The notes beneath the pieces are model-generated. The model made no database searches. It was given only the letters and a program-made list of their open reading frames with translations, and was not told the origin of the DNA. Positions 3,455 through 34,737 of a stretch of 41,018 nucleotides of DNA are shown here, one piece after another. The stretch lies in NCBI GenBank assembly GCA_900314485.1, contig OMVL01000008.1, positions 1 to 41,018 on the forward strand. Reading direction: 5' to 3'. Within the stretch, counting starts at the first letter, position 1. The number at the start of each line of letters is the position of its first letter. The position numbers were made by a program, and so were the translations under genes. The DNA is from an uncultured Eubacteriales bacterium. GTDB lineage: Bacteria > Bacillota > Clostridia > Oscillospirales > Oscillospiraceae.

Positions 3455-3629
3455 TTTTTTATAAGGTCAGATTGAGGGGAGAACAGCGGGGATATACCCC
3501 GCCATAAAAAGATCAGATGACCATTCCGCCATTCACTCCGATCACCTGCCCGGTGATAAACCGGGCTTCTTCCGAGCAGAGAAAACGCAGCGTCTCGGCC
3601 ACGTCCTCCGGTCTGCCCAGCGTTTCCAG
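3455..3629. repeat. 175-bp direct repeat, copy A (fabG 3' end plus downstream flank)
   Basis: This aligns without gaps to 4883-5057 at an offset of 1428 bp, with about six or seven mismatches. Similarity stops abruptly at 3629/5057. The copies flank the YwlG-like/ECF S pair. Confidence 0.9.
3513..3629 (-). pseudogene. fabG 3'-end duplicate (last 38 or so codons)
   Basis: The frame encodes the final part of a short-chain dehydrogenase, [16 protein letters not shown] through [14 protein letters not shown], nearly identical to the C-terminus of the intact fabG at 4941-5678. There is no catalytic domain. The frame can be read from an ATG at 3722, but that part lies inside a terminator hairpin and is not related to the family, so no protein is expected. 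Confidence 0.9.
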
Positions 3630-4882: not shown

Positions 4883-5057
4883 TTTTTTACAAGGTCAGAT
4901 TGAGGGAAGAACAGCGGGGATATATCCCGCCATAAAAAGATCAGATGACCATTCCGCCATTCACTCCGATCACCTGCCCGGTGATAAACCGGGCTTCTTC
5001 CGAGCAGAGAAAACGCACCGTCTCGGCCACATCCTCCGGTCTGCCCAGTGTTTCCAG
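4883..5057. repeat. 175-bp direct repeat, copy B (3' end of intact fabG)
   Basis: This is the partner of 3455-3629. It includes the last 39 codons of fabG and 58 bp beyond its stop, with a GCGGG-type hairpin that may help end the fabG transcript. Confidence 0.9.
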
Positions 5058-8235: not shown

Positions 8236-10299
8236 ATGAGCTTCACTGTCAAACAAATCCGTAACGTCTGCTTGCTGGGCCATTCCGGCAGCGGCAAGAC
8301 CACTCTGGTGGAAAGCATGCTCTATCAGACCGACGCCATTGCCCGCATGGGCAAAACGCCGGATGGAAATACCACCTCCGACTTTGACGCTGAAGAGATC
8401 AGACGTCAGATCTCCATCTCCGCCTCCATCGTGCCCATCAAGTACAAGGACTGCCTGATTAACGTCATCGACTGCCCGGGCAACTTTGACTTCTACGGCG
8501 AGGTGGCCGAGGCTCTGACGGCAGCTGACGCAGCTGTGATCGTTCTGCCTGCCAAGGGCGGCGTGCCTGTGGGCGCAGAGCGTGCCTGGAAGCTGGCCCG
8601 TGCCCGCAAGCTCCCCACCATGTTCTACATTTCCAAGGTGGACGAGGACAACAGTGACTATAACGCCGTGGTGGCCGAGCTGAAGGAGAAGTTCGGCAAT
8701 CAGGTGACTCCTATCGTCTCCCCCCTGTGGGATGCCAATAAAAAGGTCATCGGCGTACTGGATGTGCTGGACCGCTGCGCCTACGGTATGCAGGCCGACG
8801 GCAAGAGCCATCACATCGACATTCCCGCCGACAAGGCAGATTTTGTGGAGGAGTCCTATGCCGCACTGATGGAGAATGTGGCAGAGTACAGCGAGGAGTT
8901 CATGGAGCTGTTCTTCGACGGCCATGAGTTCACTCCCGACGAGGTGGCCGAGGGTCTGCTGGGCGGCCTGAAAGAGGGCAGCATCGCTCCCGTCTTTGGC
9001 GGCAGCGCCTTTACCGGTCTGGGCACCGAGGCTCTGCTTCACGGCATCGTCTCCATCGGCCCGTACCCCACCAATACTGACCCCATGACCGGCGTCAATG
9101 CCGATGGAGATCCCATCGAAGTAGCTGTCAACAAGGACGGAGATACGGTTGCTTACGTCTTTAAGACGGTCTCCGACCAGTATGGCAAATATTCCTACGT
9201 CAAGGTGCTGCGGGGCGTTCTCCGCCCGGACATGACCCTCATCAACGGCACCACCGGCGCCAGCGAAAAGATTGGCCGTCTGTACGCCATGTGCGGCAAA
9301 AAGACCAGCGAGCTGAAGGAACTGAACGCCGGCGACATCGGCGCCATCGCCAAGATGGACCGTCTCAAGACCGGCGACACCCTCTCTCCCGGCGCTATCA
9401 AGCTGGACCCCGTGCCCTTTGCCGAGCCCGTCTACTCCAAGGCCATTGCCCCTGCCAAGCGGGGTCAGGAGGATAAGGTGGGCGTTGGCCTCAACCGCCT
9501 GAACGAGGAGGATCCCAGCTTCTCCATTGAGAACAACGCCGAGACCCATCAGATCGTCATCCACGCCGCCGGCGACATCCAGATCGACGTGCTGGTGGCC
9601 AAGCTCAAGAGCCGCTTCGGCGTGGACGTGGTGCTCTCCGAGCCCCGTGTGCCCTACCGTGAGAAGATCCGCAAGACCGTCTCCAAGCAGGGCAAGTTCA
9701 AGAAGCAGACCGGCGGCAGCGGTCAGTACGGCGACGTCTGGATCCGCTTTGAGCCCACCGACAGCGAGGAGATGGTCTTTGAGGAGGAGGTCTTCGGCGG
9801 CAGCGTGCCCAAGAACTACTTCCCCGCTGTGGAAAAGGGCCTGCGGGACGCCTGCCTCCACGGTGTACTGGCGGGTTATCCCGTAGTGAACCTGAAAGCC
9901 GTCCTCTATGATGGCTCCTACCATCCCGTGGACTCCTCCGAAATCGCCTTCAAGACGGCGGCGCAGCTGGCCTACAAGGCCGCTCTGCCCGAGGCAAGCC
10001 CTGTGCTGATGGAGCCTATCGGCGAATTGAAGGTCACCGTGCCGGACAGCTACATGGGCGATGTCATGGGCGATCTGAACAAGCGCCGCGGCCGCGTGAT
10101 GGGCATGAATCCCACCGACGACGGCGAGCAGATCATTGAGGCTGAGGTACCCATGGCAGAGATGACCTCCTATGCCATCGACCTCCGGGCCATGACCCAG
10201 AGCCGTGGCACCTTCGTGTTCCACTTTGTCCGCTATGAGGACTGTCCTCCCGCCGCACAGGCCAAGGCCATTGAGGCCGCCAAGGAGCTGCAGGAGTAA
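8236..10299 (+). CDS. EF-G-like translation GTPase (EF-G2 type)
   Basis: The 687-residue protein has the five-domain length of elongation factor G. The P-loop GHSGSGKTT is at residues 15-23, and the SKVD motif (in place of NKxD) is near 134. Domain III/IV patterns such as TGGSGQYGDVWIRF and FGGSVPKNYFPAVEKGL are present, with EPIGELKVTVPDSYMGDVMG in domain V. Switch regions differ from canonical EF-G: switch I reads EEIRRQISIS rather than RGITI, and switch II reads DCPGNFDF rather than DTPGHVDF, so the usual catalytic His is Asn. This matches a recognised group of EF-G-like paralogues of unclear function, and a canonical fusA is expected elsewhere. It stands alone, away from rpsL/rpsG/tuf, with its own promoter and terminator. 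Confidence 0.88.
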   Translation: MSFTVKQIRNVCLLGHSGSGKTTLVESMLYQTDAIARMGKTPDGNTTSDFDAEEIRRQISISASIVPIKYKDCLINVIDCPGNFDFYGEVAEALTAADAAVIVLPAKGGVPVGAERAWKLARARKLPTMFYISKVDEDNSDYNAVVAELKEKFGNQVTPIVSPLWDANKKVIGVLDVLDRCAYGMQADGKSHHIDIPADKADFVEESYAALMENVAEYSEEFMELFFDGHEFTPDEVAEGLLGGLKEGSIAPVFGGSAFTGLGTEALLHGIVSIGPYPTNTDPMTGVNADGDPIEVAVNKDGDTVAYVFKTVSDQYGKYSYVKVLRGVLRPDMTLINGTTGASEKIGRLYAMCGKKTSELKELNAGDIGAIAKMDRLKTGDTLSPGAIKLDPVPFAEPVYSKAIAPAKRGQEDKVGVGLNRLNEEDPSFSIENNAETHQIVIHAAGDIQIDVLVAKLKSRFGVDVVLSEPRVPYREKIRKTVSKQGKFKKQTGGSGQYGDVWIRFEPTDSEEMVFEEEVFGGSVPKNYFPAVEKGLRDACLHGVLAGYPVVNLKAVLYDGSYHPVDSSEIAFKTAAQLAYKAALPEASPVLMEPIGELKVTVPDSYMGDVMGDLNKRRGRVMGMNPTDDGEQIIEAEVPMAEMTSYAIDLRAMTQSRGTFVFHFVRYEDCPPAAQAKAIEAAKELQE

Positions 10300-15709: not shown

Positions 15710-17593
15710 ATGATCGACATTACCATTCAAAACCTCATAAAATCCTTTGAAGTGGGAGATAACCTGCTGGATGGCCTGACCTTCCAAATTGACTCCGGCG
15801 AGCGGGTGGGCATCCTGGGCAAAAACGGCTGCGGCAAGACCACCCTGTTCAAGATCCTCACCGGGGAATACGACTACGACGAGGGGCAGCTGTCCATTGC
15901 GCCGGGAAAGAAGCTGGGTCTCATCTCCCAGATCCCCGTCTACCCGGAGGGCTACACGGTGGAGGATGTGTTGGACACCGCCTTTACCCGGCTGCACAAA
16001 ATGGAGCGGGAATTAGAGGATCTGACTGCCAGAATGGGCGCAGGGGAGACGGATAAGGCCACCCTCACCCGCTACGACGATCTGTCTCAGCGCTTTGAGA
16101 CTGAGGGCGGCTACGATACCACCGTCCGTCTGGGCAAGGTCTGCAACGGCCTGGAAATCCCGCCTGCAATGCGCCAGCAGCTCTTCGATCAGCTCTCCGG
16201 CGGCGAGAAGACCAGGGTCAACCTGGCCCGGCTCATTTTGGAGGACACGGACATCCTGCTGCTGGATGAGCCCACCAACCATCTGGACCTCCGCGCCACA
16301 GAGTGGCTGGAGGAGTATCTGGATTCCTTTCAGGGCACCGTCCTTGCCATCTCCCACGACCGTTACTTTTTGGACCGTGTGGTGAAGCGCATCATTGAGA
16401 TCGACCGGGGCAGGGCGGTGTTCTACTCCGGCAATTACTCCTTCTACGCTGTGGAAAAAGAGCGGCGCTATGAGGAGCAGCTGCGCCAGTACGAAAAGGA
16501 GCAGGCCAAGATCGCCCAGCTCTCCGCCACTGCCACGCTCATGCACCAGCGGGGCACGGAGAAGATGCACAAGACTGCCTTCGCCATTGAAAAGCGGATC
16601 GAGCGGCTGCGCACTACCGACCGCCCTACGGGCGCCGAGCGGGTGATGACGGTGGGCTTTGGAGAGCGGGACTTTAACGGCGACGAGCTGTTTTCCGTCT
16701 CCAACCTCTCCAAATCCTTTGGAGACCGGACCTTGTTTGACCGCATTGACTTGGAGGTCTTAGGCGGAGAGCGCATTGCCATCCTGGGTGACAACGGCAC
16801 CGGCAAGACCACCTTCCTGAAGATCCTGCTGGAACAGGAAAATCCGGACACCGGCAAGATCCGCTTTGGCCCTATGGTCAAGACGGGTTACCTGCCCCAG
16901 ATCGTCCAGTTTGACCACCCGGAGCGGAGCCTGTTTGAGACTCTTTTATGGGAGGATAACTGCTCTGCCCAGGAGGCAAGAGACCGTCTGGGCGCCTTCC
17001 GATTCCGGGGGGAGGATGTGTTCAAAGAGGTATCCACCCTCTCCGGCGGTGAGCGCTCAAGGCTCAAGCTGTGCCAGCTGATGGCGAAGAACATCAATCT
17101 CCTCATTCTGGACGAGCCTACCAATCATCTGGACATCGCCTCCCGTGAGTGGATCGAGACTGCGGTGGAGGAGTTCGAAGGGGCCCTGCTCTTCGTCTCT
17201 CACGACCGATACTTCATCAGCCGCTTTGCAAACCGCATCTGGTTTTTGGAGGACGGGAAGATCACTGACTTCAAGGGGGGCTATGAGGACTGGCTCCGCT
17301 GGAAGGAGCGTCAGGCGGAACTGCGTAATGTCCCCCGATTCCAGCCGGAGAAAAAGCCGAAGCGGCAGAAACCGACCTCAGGCACCAAGCAACTGGAAAA
17401 GGAGCTGCGGGCGGTAGAGCGTCAGATCCAACGACTGGAAGAAGAGTCACAGCGATTGGAAACGGAGATGGCGGCCAACGCCACGGACTATGTGAAATTA
17501 CAGGAACTGACGGAACAGCAGACCGCCACAGAGACCGAGCTGGGGGAGGCGTATGAAAAATGGGAAAGCCTATCCGAACAGCTGGGCGGCTGA
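15710..17593 (+). CDS. ABC-F family ATPase (Uup/YfmR-like)
   Basis: The 627-residue soluble protein has two ABC cassettes and no membrane segments, the ABC-F arrangement. Cassette 1 has Walker A GKNGCGKT at residues 37-44, signature LSGGEKTR near 163 and Walker B ILLLDEPTNHLDL. Cassette 2 has GDNGTGKTT near 362, LSGGERSR near 445 and LLILDEPTNHLDI. An interdomain linker rich in charged residues (about 240-310) would reach the ribosomal P-site region, and the C-terminal 90 or so residues form a basic stretch plus coiled coil, as in Uup/YfmR. Such proteins resolve stalled ribosomes or protect them from antibiotics; no resistance role can be inferred here. The ATG at 15710 lacks a clear Shine-Dalgarno. 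The 3' end overlaps the YdcF-like gene by 34 nt. Confidence 0.9.
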   Translation: MIDITIQNLIKSFEVGDNLLDGLTFQIDSGERVGILGKNGCGKTTLFKILTGEYDYDEGQLSIAPGKKLGLISQIPVYPEGYTVEDVLDTAFTRLHKMERELEDLTARMGAGETDKATLTRYDDLSQRFETEGGYDTTVRLGKVCNGLEIPPAMRQQLFDQLSGGEKTRVNLARLILEDTDILLLDEPTNHLDLRATEWLEEYLDSFQGTVLAISHDRYFLDRVVKRIIEIDRGRAVFYSGNYSFYAVEKERRYEEQLRQYEKEQAKIAQLSATATLMHQRGTEKMHKTAFAIEKRIERLRTTDRPTGAERVMTVGFGERDFNGDELFSVSNLSKSFGDRTLFDRIDLEVLGGERIAILGDNGTGKTTFLKILLEQENPDTGKIRFGPMVKTGYLPQIVQFDHPERSLFETLLWEDNCSAQEARDRLGAFRFRGEDVFKEVSTLSGGERSRLKLCQLMAKNINLLILDEPTNHLDIASREWIETAVEEFEGALLFVSHDRYFISRFANRIWFLEDGKITDFKGGYEDWLRWKERQAELRNVPRFQPEKKPKRQKPTSGTKQLEKELRAVERQIQRLEEESQRLETEMAANATDYVKLQELTEQQTATETELGEAYEKWESLSEQLGG

Positions 17594-18180
17594 TCCGGCT
17601 GCTTCTGGCCCTCTTCATCGTGGGCATCCTCTGCTTCGGCATACAGGAGACCATTATCCTTGCGGGAGGACGGAGCGAACTCAGGACCCAGCCGGACGCC
17701 GTCATTATCCTGGGCTGTAAGATCTGGGGAGAGGACCCGTCTCCCGCCCTCCAAAACCGGCTGGACGCAGCGCTGGACTATCTGGAGGAACTGGAAGGGG
17801 AGGGCTGTACTCCCGTCATCGTCGTCAGCGGCGGACAGGGGGCGGACGAGCCCATCAGCGAGGCAGCCTGCATGGCGCAATATTTGAAAGAGAACGGCGT
17901 TTCGGCCGAGCGAATCCGAGTTGAGACAGAATCCACCAATACGGCGGAAAATCTGAGCAACTCCATGGCGCTGCTCCGGGCGGAGGGCTGGTCCGGTCGC
18001 TCTGTCACCATTGTCTCCAATGACTTTCACCTGACAAGGGTGCGGATGCTGGCCGGACGGATCATGCCGGAAATCACCTGTTCCACCCTGAGTGCTCCCA
18101 TGCCCACCCTTACTTCCGCCCTCTATTCAAATGTGCGGGAGGCATTTGCCCTCATCAAATCCTTTTTATGGGACCGATAA
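17560..18180 (+). CDS. YdcF family protein (DUF218), membrane-anchored
   Basis: The 206-residue protein has one N-terminal membrane segment (about 10-32, RLIRLLLALFIVGILCFG) and then a DUF218 domain facing outward. Family patterns are AVIILGCKIWGEDPSPAL near residue 47, VIVVSGGQGADEPISEA near 86, the conserved EAACMAQYL, ESTNTAENLSNS near 127, and VTIVSNDFHLTR near 150. Related proteins such as SanA and ElyC affect envelope integrity, but the activity is not defined. The ATG at 17560 lies inside the ABC-F gene with GGGGGAGG 11 nt upstream, implying translational coupling. prfA begins 6 nt after its stop. Confidence 0.85.
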   Translation: MGKPIRTAGRLIRLLLALFIVGILCFGIQETIILAGGRSELRTQPDAVIILGCKIWGEDPSPALQNRLDAALDYLEELEGEGCTPVIVVSGGQGADEPISEAACMAQYLKENGVSAERIRVETESTNTAENLSNSMALLRAEGWSGRSVTIVSNDFHLTRVRMLAGRIMPEITCSTLSAPMPTLTSALYSNVREAFALIKSFLWDR

Positions 18181-30310: not shown

Positions 30311-30358
30311 ATGCCAAAAATCAAGCGCACGCAAGGAATGGTTGGGAAAAGATTATGA
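30311..30358 (+). CDS. possible 15-codon leader peptide overlapping ftsE
   Basis: The frame [15 protein letters not shown] begins 6 nt after the -10 box, about where transcription should start, so it would be translated leaderless. Its TGA overlaps the ftsE ATG (ATGA). It might deliver ribosomes to ftsE, whose own site is only GGGAAAAG. It could equally be chance. Confidence 0.3.
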   Translation: MPKIKRTQGMVGKRL

Positions 30359-31047
30359 TCCAGTTTAACCATGTAAAAAAGATATACGAGAGCAACCTGA
30401 CCCACGCTCTGCATGACATCTCCTTTGTCATTGAAGACGGGGAATTTGTCTTTCTGGTGGGCCCCTCCGGTTCGGGCAAATCTACCATTATCAAGCTGAT
30501 CACGGCGGAGGAACGTATGACCTCCGGCGGCATTTTGGTGGGCGATTTCGACCTGGCCAAGCTGAAAAAGCGGAAGGTGCCCTATCTCCGCCGCACCTTG
30601 GGCATTGTGTTCCAGGATTTCCGGCTGATTGAAAACCGGACGGTCCGGGGCAATCTGGAGTTTGCCATGCGGGTGGTAGGAAGCCCCAATAAGGTCATCA
30701 AGGAGCGCATCCCCTATGTGCTTGATCTGGTGGGCCTGTCGGAGAAGGCGGACTGCTATCCCAACGAGATCTCCGGCGGCGAGCAGCAGCGTGTGGCCAT
30801 TGCCCGTGCCCTTGTGAACAACCCCAAGACCATCATCGCTGATGAGCCCACCGGCAATCTGGACCCGGAGCGGTCCTATGAGCTGATGTGCCTGTTGGAG
30901 AAGATCAATCAGCTGGGCACCACCATGCTGGTGGTCACTCACGAGCGGGATTTGGTCAACTGCTTTAACAAGCGGGTCATCAGCATTGACAGCGGTCTGG
31001 TCACCAGTGATATGGAGAATGGTTTGTACGATTATGAGACGATTTAA
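30355..31047 (+). CDS. ftsE: cell division ATP-binding protein FtsE
   Basis: The 230-residue ABC ATPase pairs with FtsX to couple ATP hydrolysis to activation of peptidoglycan hydrolases at the division site. Walker A is GPSGSGKS at residues 36-43, the Q-loop VFQDFRLI near 86, the signature ISGGEQQR at 139-146, Walker [12 protein letters not shown] at 160-170, and the switch His in VVTHERDL near 195. YERMTSGG-type loop sequence ([10 protein letters not shown]) and overall length fit FtsE rather than a LolD/MacB-type protein, and ftsX overlaps its 3' end by 14 nt. Translation may depend on a short upstream frame. Confidence 0.95.
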
Positions 31048-31921
31048 TTTAGGATATTACATCAAAGAGGGTTTTCATGGGGCAGGCAGCCATGGATTTA
31101 TGACCTTTGCCGCCATTACGATCATGGCATCCTGTCTGGTCATCATGGGCAGCTTTGTCCTTCTGGCTTTGAATCTGGAACACAATCTGGATGCCCTGAT
31201 GGCGGAGAACGAATTCCTTGCCTATGTGGATGAGGCCTATTCCGACGAAGAGGGCGCCCTTTTGGGCGAACAGATCGGCGCCATTGAAAACGTGGCCTCC
31301 TATCGGTATATTACCCGGGAAGAGGCCCGGGCCGACTATGTGAGCGGTCTGGAGGATGATGACCTCTACGCCGATCTGCCGGCCTCGATTTTCCGGGGAC
31401 GGTTCAGCATTCAGGTGAAGGATATTTCTCAGCTCCCGGATACCATTGCAGAGGTTCGGAATGTGGAGGGCATTGCCAAGATTTCCGCCGCATTGGATGT
31501 GGCAAACGGCTTTGTCACGCTGCGAAACGTCACGATCATCATCGCCCTCATTCTGGTGGTGGTGCTGGTGGTCGTCTCCTTCTTTATCATCTCCAACGCC
31601 ATCAAGCTGGCCACCTCCGGACGTGAGGGAGAGATTGCCATTATGAAGATGGTGGGCGCAACCAATGCCTTTGTCCGCTGGCCCTTCGTGGTAGAGGGCA
31701 TCATTCTCGGCCTGGGCAGCGCCATTCTGGCTACCCTGGTCCAGTGGGGCATCTATGAGCTGCTCATGAAGGCCATCAATGTGTACAGCCACGTGCAGCT
31801 GATCAACATCATTCATTTTGACCAGCTGGCCCTGCCCCTGTTGGCCGTCTTTGGCGGCATCGGCCTCATTGTAGGCGTTTTGGGCAGCTTGATCACCATT
31901 CGGAAATTCCTGAGAGTCTGA
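31034..31921 (+). CDS. ftsX: cell division protein FtsX
   Basis: The 295-residue permease-like partner of FtsE has the expected four membrane segments: one near the N-terminus (FMTFAAITIMASCLVIMGSF), then a large external loop (about 45-160) that in FtsX binds the hydrolase, then three segments near residues 170-290. The conserved IAIMKMVGATNAFVRWPFVV motif lies near 200. I start at the ATG at 31034, inside ftsE; the upstream in-frame start would add unrelated residues. The first hydrolase gene begins 14 nt after its stop with a good AGGAGG site, supporting an FtsEX-hydrolase operon. Confidence 0.95.
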   Translation: MRRFNLGYYIKEGFHGAGSHGFMTFAAITIMASCLVIMGSFVLLALNLEHNLDALMAENEFLAYVDEAYSDEEGALLGEQIGAIENVASYRYITREEARADYVSGLEDDDLYADLPASIFRGRFSIQVKDISQLPDTIAEVRNVEGIAKISAALDVANGFVTLRNVTIIIALILVVVLVVVSFFIISNAIKLATSGREGEIAIMKMVGATNAFVRWPFVVEGIILGLGSAILATLVQWGIYELLMKAINVYSHVQLINIIHFDQLALPLLAVFGGIGLIVGVLGSLITIRKFLRV

Positions 31922-31935
31922 GCAGGAGGGTACAT

Positions 31936-33262
31936 ATGGCCGGACAAAAAATCAATGGAGGAGAGGGAAAGCCCAAATGGGACGCCCGGCGGATTGTCGT
32001 GGCTGTCCTCGCCTTTGCCATGGCAGTTCTGATGCTCCTTCCCTTAGTGACCAATGTATTTCTCTTCTCCCACGCTGTCACAAAAGAGGACATCGAGGCT
32101 CTGAGACAGCAGAAGCAGAGCATTGCCGGACATCATTGACGAATACGACGTGCTCATTGCCGAGAGCAAGGACGAACTGGCCCAGGCACAGGCGGACGAG
32201 GATCTGTACTATCAGCAGTTTTTGCAGCGGGTCCGGGCCATGGAGGAGGAGGGCCAGGTCTCCTATTGGCAGATCCTGTTCCAGTCCTCAAACTTCTCTG
32301 AACTGCTGGACCGCTTCAACTTTGTCAACGACGTCATGAAGTATGACAACAACGTGATGGACAACCTGGCCGCCGCCCGCCTTGCTGTGGACGCCGCCGA
32401 GCAGAAGCTGGAGGAGGAGCAGGCCGAACAGCAGGAGGCCCGTGACCAGCTGGAGGCAGAGCGTACCGAGCTGGAGGAGACTGCCCAGCAGGAAGAGGCC
32501 GTCCTTCAGGAGATTTTGGCAAACGAGGAAATTTACTCTGACCAGATTGCCGCCCTCTCCACCCGTGAAGAGGAGCTGATGGGCGAGATCACCGCTGCTG
32601 AAGAGGAGTACGCCGCCGAGCAGGCCCGTCTCGCCCTGGAGGCCCAGCGCCGCAAAGAGGAAGAGGAACGCCGGGCCGCTGAGGAGGCCGCCCGGCAGGC
32701 CGCCATCCGCAAGCAGGAAGAGGAAGAAGAACGCCGCCGTCAGGAAGAGGAGAATAATCAGCCGGAAACCCCTGCCGAGGAGCCTGAAACTCCTGCTGAG
32801 CAGGAGCCGTCCCAGCAGCCTGAGACGCCCACGGAGGAGCCGGCTCAGGAGCCGGAAAAGCCCGCCCAGACAGGGAAAAATCCCTCTGCCTCCTTCAGCG
32901 GCGCAACCCTTGTGAACTTTGCGTCTCAGTATGTGGGCGTCATTCCCTATGTGTGGGGCGGCAGCAGCCTTGAGACAGGAGCGGACTGCTCCGGCTTTGT
33001 CTCCGCCGTGCTGCGGCATTACGGACTCATGTCCGGCCGTATCACTGCCGCCGGTTTTGCCTCCTTCGGCAAGGAGGTCAGCGTGGAAAACATGCAGGTG
33101 GGAGACATCGTGGTCTATTCCAGAAGTGACGGCACCTCGCCCTATGACCATGTGGGCTTCTATGCCGGCAACGGCCTGCTGCTCAGCGCCAGAGGGACCG
33201 GCAAGGGCATCGGCTATTGCTCCGTCTACTATCGCCCCATCTATACCGTTCGCAGAATCTGA
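31936..33262 (+). pseudogene. FtsEX-associated coiled-coil NlpC/P60 hydrolase, copy 1 (frame broken)
   Basis: Two frames make up one protein. The first (31936-32139) encodes a cytoplasmic start, one membrane segment or signal (VVAVLAFAMAVLMLLPLVTN) and SHAVTKEDIEALRQQKQSIA. The second (open from 32105, to 33262) encodes a long coiled coil (DEYDVLIAESKDELAQAQAD, AMEEEGQVSYWQILFQSS), an EEERRAAEEAARQ stretch, a Pro/Glu linker and a C-terminal NlpC/P60 domain with Cys in ADCSGFVSAVL and His in DHVGFYAGNG. The layout is like PcsB/CwlO hydrolases activated by FtsEX. The frame changes by +1 right after AGCATTGCCG (ending 32128), and compared with copy 2 another 57 bp is missing at that point. It may be a pseudogene or an assembly error. 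Confidence 0.8.
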
Positions 33263-33305
33263 CAAATAGCTATTTTACAGAAAAATCCCAACAGGAGGAG
33301 CAATT

Positions 33306-34737
33306 ATGTCTGCACCCAAAACCAATCGAGTAGAACAAAAGACCAAGTGGGACGCCCGGCGGATCGTCGTGGCTGTCCTCGCCCTTGCCATGGCAGTACT
33401 GATGCTCCTTCCCTTAGTGACCAATGTATTTCTCTTCTCCCACGCTGTCACAAAAGAGGACATCGAGGCTCTGAGACAGCAGAAGCAGAGCATTGCCGCT
33501 CAACGCGCTGGAAGAGGAGATCGGCCTGCTGTCCGATCAGATCAACACCACTCAGGACATCATTGACGAATATGATGTGATGATCGCCGATACCAAGGAC
33601 GAGCTGGCCCAGGCACAGGCGGACGAGGACCTGTACTATCAGCAGTTTTTGCAGCGGGTCCGGGCCATGGAGGAGGAAGGCCAGGTCTCTTACTGGGAGA
33701 TTTTATTCCAGTCCTCCAGCTTCTCCGATCTGCTGGACCGCTTCAACTTTGTCAACGATGTCATGAAGTACGACAATGACATGATTGACAACCTGGAGGC
33801 CGCCCGCCTTGCTGTGGACGCCGCCGAGCAGAAGCTGGAGGAGGAGCAGGCCGAACAGCAGGAGGCCCGGGACCAGATGGAGGTCGAGCGGGCGGAACTG
33901 GAGCAGACCGCACAGGAAGAAGAGGCGGTCCTCCAGGAGATTTTGAACAACGAGGAGATCTATTCCGCACAGATCACGGCTCTCTCCACCCGTGAGGAGG
34001 AACTGGCCGGCCAGATCAGCGCCGCTGAGGAGGAGTACGCCGCCGAGCAGGCCCGTCTCGCCCTGGAGGCCCAGCGCCGTAAGGAGGAAGAGGAGCGCCG
34101 TGCTGCCGAGGAGGCCGCCCGTCAGGCGGCCATCCGCCAGCAGGAGGAAGAGGAGCGCCGCCGTCAGGAAGAAGAGAATCAGAACGCACAGGAGCCTGAA
34201 CCGACCCAGGAGCCGGCTGCGGCCGAAGAGCCGACCACGGCCGAAGAACCCTCCACTGCTCAAGAGCCAACTACGGCTGAGGAGCCTGCCACCACCCAGG
34301 AACCGGCTACGGTGGAGGAACCTGCCGCCACCAAGGAACCGGATCCTGAGCCTGTGCAGCCTGCCGACACGGGCAAGAACCCCTCTGCCTCTTTCAGCGG
34401 CGCCACGCTGGTCAACTATGCCTCTCGGTATGTGGGCGTCCTGCCCTATGTGTGGGGCGGCACCAGCCTAGAGACAGGGGCGGACTGCTCCGGCTTCGTC
34501 TCCGCCGTGCTGCGGCACTACGGACTCATGTCCGGCCGGCTGACCTCCGGCAGCTTCCGCAGCTTCGGTAAGGCGGTGAGCGTGGAGAATATGCAGGTGG
34601 GCGACATCGTCTGCTATTCCGGTCATGTGGGCTTCTACGCCGGCAACGGCCTGCTGCTCAGCGCCATCGGCACCGGCAGAGGCATCGGCTATATGTCCGT
34701 GTACTACAAGCCCATTTTGGCGGTACGCCGTGTGTGA
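33306..34737 (+). pseudogene. FtsEX-associated coiled-coil NlpC/P60 hydrolase, copy 2 (frame broken)
   Basis: This tandem paralogue of copy 1 lies 43 nt downstream and has its own AGGAGGAG site. The first frame (33306-33566) gives the membrane segment and SHAVTKEDIEALRQQKQSIA, then nonsense; the correct frame resumes with PLNALEEEIGLLSDQINTTQ and runs through the coiled coil, a longer repeat-rich linker and an NlpC/P60 domain (ADCSGFV, SGHVGFYAGNG) to 34737. The +1 frame change falls after the same AGCATTGCCG (ending 33496) as in copy 1. About 100 bp before the break (from 33397) is identical to copy 1. The expected role is cutting septal peptidoglycan under FtsEX control, if the break is not real or is bypassed. 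Confidence 0.8.
34192..34345 (+). repeat. Pro/Glu/Thr repeat linker in hydrolase copy 2
   Basis: Imperfect tandem units of the form EEPTTAEEP / QEPATVEEP encode a flexible linker between coiled coil and NlpC/P60 domain. Copy 1 has a shorter and different linker, so this part is evolving by repeat gain and loss. Confidence 0.7.

Follow-up and report, generated by a model that had tools for sequence, protein, structure and literature searches.

Matching frame breaks in two tandem FtsEX-linked hydrolase genes are very probably assembly scars at a repeated stretch

Two tandem genes for PcsB-type NlpC/P60 peptidoglycan hydrolases lose their reading frame at the same base in the window (the whole analyzed stretch of 41,018 nucleotides), and we consider it very probable, judging from the assembly geometry and from related genomes, that both breaks are scars left by the assembly at a repeated stretch, which would make them ordinary and not new biology. 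In both genes AGCATTGCCG is the last stretch in frame. The initial annotation had recognized this shared sequence and placed the breaks at 32128 in copy 1, which is correct, and at 33496 in copy 2, which is a slip of two bases (33498 is the correct position). The roughly 100 bp of identity that it described before the breaks amount to exactly 100 bases (Table 1), with the very next base already different, and its claim that copy 1 resumes 57 bases deeper into the gene than copy 2 is confirmed by matches between the copies: a 17-base match starts at 32129 in copy 1 and at 33556 in copy 2, and the identity between 32128-32427 and 33555-33854 is 91%. Reading on from the left pieces leads to stops and gives ORFs of 67 aa (copy 1) and 86 aa (copy 2), and the frame of both right pieces is open as far as their own stop. 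The identity is not due to chance, since no exact repeat in the 678,673 bases examined is longer than that of the hydrolase pair.

Table 1. Features of the hydrolase locus and of the contig end, in positions of the window.
Feature	Position	Strand	Evidence and remarks
FtsE (ABC ATPase)	30355..31047	+	Pfam ABC_tran; gene order alike in relatives
FtsX	31034..31921	+	Pfam FtsX and FtsX_ECD
Left part of copy 1: hydrolase N-terminus (64 codons)	31936..32127	+	Translation; 86% paralogue match to copy 2 piece
Copy 1 exact 100-base block, break at block end	32029..32128	+	Repeat comparison
Right part of copy 1 up to its stop, with the PcsB coiled coil from profile position 16 onward and the NlpC/P60 domain	32129..33262	+	ORF, Pfam
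Intercopy spacer of 43 bases, AGGAGG upstream of copy 2	33263..33305	+	Ribosome-binding site read by eye
Left part of copy 2: hydrolase N-terminus (64 codons)	33306..33497	+	Translation; no Pfam match
Copy 2 exact 100-base block, break at block end	33399..33498	+	Repeat comparison
Right part of copy 2 up to its stop, with the PcsB coiled coil and the NlpC/P60 domain	33499..34737	+	ORF, Pfam
Final 99 bases of window contig, identical to final 99 bases of contig C54	40920..41018	+	Gives the overlap length of the assembly

Both genes have the features of FtsEX-linked PcsB-type hydrolases, as they adjoin ftsEX and combine a PcsB coiled coil (PF24568, 44.6 and 37.8 bits at a cut-off of 27, profile positions 16-72 of 75) with a C-terminal NLPC_P60 domain (PF00877, 52.0 and 56.8 bits at a cut-off of 23). 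Unlike in the 28 other genomes matched below, two copies lie in tandem, and this assembly lacks the beginning of the coiled-coil region. The order FtsE-FtsX-hydrolase was found in seven loci from six genomes (two of the loci, L004 and L063, apparently come from a single contig), and in six of these seven loci genes for Lrp and an aminotransferase follow 3' of the hydrolase; in L007 no match to either was found within 1,500 bases after the hydrolase.

A comparison with relatives revealed how much of both genes is missing. The 64 residues of the copy 2 left piece were used as query against 59 genomes (32 of the genus including this one and 27 from the wider family or order), and matches were obtained in 29 genomes including this one, 26 of them belonging to the genus. 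In the 28 other matched genomes there is one N-terminal match apiece, situated in a stop-free frame of 326-630 aa that in some cases reaches the contig end, and only this genome has two such matches among the 29. The alignment of intact homologues, which had been proposed as a check, showed additional in-frame sequence at both breaks in all 28 relatives: 23 residues lie between the left piece and the copy 2 right piece and 42 residues in the case of copy 1, although the counts for the most distant relatives are based on weak alignments. These numbers come from one alignment of 23 genomes and from separate alignments of five (G028, G037, G019, G033 and G035), with the opposite-strand rows G035-, G002- and G014- left out of the five-genome count. 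As these residues are kept in the relatives, copy 2 lacks about 68 bases and copy 1 about 125 bases; the earlier guess of about 50 missing residues was near.

The second line of evidence comes from the assembly itself. The terminal 300 bases of each of the 76 contigs, left and right, were compared, and 142 of the 152 ends were readable, the remaining ten (five contigs) reading N. Among the readable ends, 16 pairs have in common exactly 99 bases that extend to both termini, and a longer overlap occurs in no pair; 12 of these pairs are facing and four run in the same direction, including the right end of the window, where the base preceding the 99 bases in common with C54 is already different. 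Other overlaps to both termini have lengths of 29, 36, 54 and 55 bases and occur once each. The uniform overlap indicates that the assembly was of the de Bruijn type and that its largest k was 99 or 100, whichever published rule holds; the default largest k of idba_ud is 100. According to COBRA (PMC10914622) the end overlap equals maxK for metaSPAdes and MEGAHIT and maxK-1 for IDBA_UD, whereas Chen 2020 (PMC7111523) gives n for IDBA-UD and n-1 for metaSPAdes. The nearest relative, RUG12037, judging by its name, probably belongs to the data set of Stewart 2019 (PMC6785717), for which idba_ud was used for single samples and MEGAHIT with k up to 87 for co-assemblies.

Furthermore, 14 contigs that cover 678,673 bases or 38% of the genome (441,018 bases in a first pass) were searched on both strands, each against itself and against the others, for exact repeats of at least 40 bases. 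This analysis yielded 17 pairs, none of them longer than 100 bases. Two pairs measure 99 bases, one of which (C28/C37) is a contig-end overlap, and the other, at 9560 and 17559 of C66, is the only other one located inside contigs. At this site (9560-9708 and 17559-17739) 99 identical bases are followed by a skip of 32 bases in one copy exactly at the block end and then by 49 more identical bases, and the site reads as another scar, built like the hydrolase breaks. Thus, both internal blocks at the ceiling of 99-100 bases carry a jump. An ORF on the minus strand of C66 (17644-19152) resembles a serine recombinase by eye. Among the shorter repeats, a 92-base exact direct repeat in the window (3498-3589 and 4926-5017) is in register on both sides, and we attribute its assembly without a jump to a length below 99 bases; its first copy looks as if the end of a gene on the minus strand, by eye a short-chain dehydrogenase, had been partly duplicated there. 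An 84-base pair is in register on the right side, and a 61-base pair in C52 is part of a tandem array with a period of 189. An 80-base exact repeat (C26 25535 and C57 21045) has a 17-base shift at one edge, indicating that repeats of a length other than 99 bases can also have a shift at their edge. Neither the window nor the stretches of the 14 contigs contain any N, so that a stripped gap is indistinguishable from a trimmed join.

The assembly join at a repeat, one of several options in the initial annotation, is strongly supported by the 99-base contig-end overlaps, the repeat ceiling and the site in C66. We assume that the 5' parts of two tandem PcsB-type hydrolase genes are identical over a stretch longer than the k of the assembler and probably shorter than the read-pair distance, so that the left piece of each gene would end 99 bases into the repeat. 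Read-pair distance would then probably have guided the attachment of each right piece to its own left piece, with the middle of the repeat omitted and no Ns inserted, and the two right pieces would have lost different lengths at their start. This unequal trimming would account for the same break base, the different resumption and the lost frame, and the real genes would be whole; IDBA-UD may be the program, as its behavior fits. The identical block of the hydrolase pair, at 100 bases (99 plus one) and not exactly 99 as in C66, speaks against such a scar. The additional G would fit if each right piece opens with the last base of a codon, and G is present at that codon position in six of six relatives printed for copy 1, but in only two of six for copy 2. 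In addition, the right pieces do not start at the point expected from a plain graph, 99 bases before the copies diverge, and for this reason an unproven trimming step is needed. Errors of a related kind have been described for short-read metagenomes, where pieces likewise end at the overlap length into a repeat: COBRA recommends the use of contigs instead of scaffolds for IDBA_UD owing to scaffolding errors (PMC10914622), and Chen 2020 suspects that local assembly errors are prominent in IDBA-UD assemblies (PMC7111523). A tandem gene pair scarred twice at one base and a trimming of the right piece are not described in the available text of these two sources. A twin break at one base resembles shared biology, yet the geometry of an overlap-length block followed by a jump recurs in the same draft genome, and the measurement of contig-end overlaps is a quick test before recoding or paired pseudogenes are claimed in metagenome-assembled genomes. 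In the present case, annotation would miscall both FtsEX-linked hydrolases of the species as truncated.

The copies are more alike before the break than behind it, as none of 33 third positions differ before and 20 of 100 after the break (Fisher p 0.004, with a boundary picked after the block had been seen), and two of 50 over the wider span of codons 15-64 (p 0.007). Probably, gene conversion homogenized both 5' parts, and such conversion would have extended the repeat beyond what the assembler could resolve. The initial annotation had suggested conversion of a broken N-terminus; the conversion is in line with the third positions, but the converted N-terminus would have been intact. The same homogenization fits real damage, in which one copy was broken by a deletion and the other either by gene conversion or by a further deletion with the same left end, leaving pseudogenes or truncated proteins that start at an internal TTG, and TTG-started ORFs of 379 and 414 aa are indeed present. 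Nevertheless, we regard real damage as very unlikely: the left edge coincides with the overlap length of the assembly itself, the different right ends mean that one converted deletion is insufficient, and C66 shows a like anatomy elsewhere in the genome. Moreover, the right pieces have kept a dN/dS of 0.18 over 368 codons (0.11 in the first 190 and 0.24 in the last 120; the value of 0.58 for the N-terminal part was set aside, being based on few changes), and by this measure of codon changes they are under purifying selection. Due to the left end at the overlap length and the differing right ends, neither paired deletions, for which the initial annotation had considered a hotspot of recurrent deletion, nor a converted broken N-terminus is our leading reading. 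A variant in which a recombination hotspot removes different lengths from a shared left end, conversion keeps the left parts identical and the hydrolase output can be switched or truncated seems highly improbable.

The two N-terminal matches in this genome only, among the genomes matched, could also suggest that the tandem arrangement is a chimera that the assembler made from two strains or species. We give this extremely little weight, since the copies are separated by a spacer with its own AGGAGG, diverge far above strain level (dS about 0.6) and are flanked by FtsEX before and Lrp-aminotransferase after, same as in relatives, and since the best match lies within this genome (83% versus 79% for the nearest relative). 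A search for a second strain of the species in genome contigs, a collection that may omit records of this genome itself or of very close ones, returned three loci with best segments of 75, 68 and 65% identity, none of them from the same species. Programmed frameshifting or translational bypass, as exemplified by phage T4 gene 60, likewise involves two successive reading frames of one gene, and the signal-like AGCATTGCCG and the net shift are common to both copies; the idea that ribosomes shift or bypass there and join both parts, raised initially as a recoding signal, finds no support and has almost no probability left, as all 28 other matched genomes read through the region in one frame without a stop, the frame change is not conserved, and the product of a shift would still be short of the 23 or 42 residues kept by relatives, coding sequence being missing here and not skipped.

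Apart from the probable assembly scars, what remains real is a tandem duplication with a homogenized 5' part that was long enough to defeat the assembler. The copies also differ in their linkers: 18-base repeats at 34172-34340 encode a Glu/Pro/Thr/Ala-rich linker in copy 2, and the linker of copy 1 is shorter.
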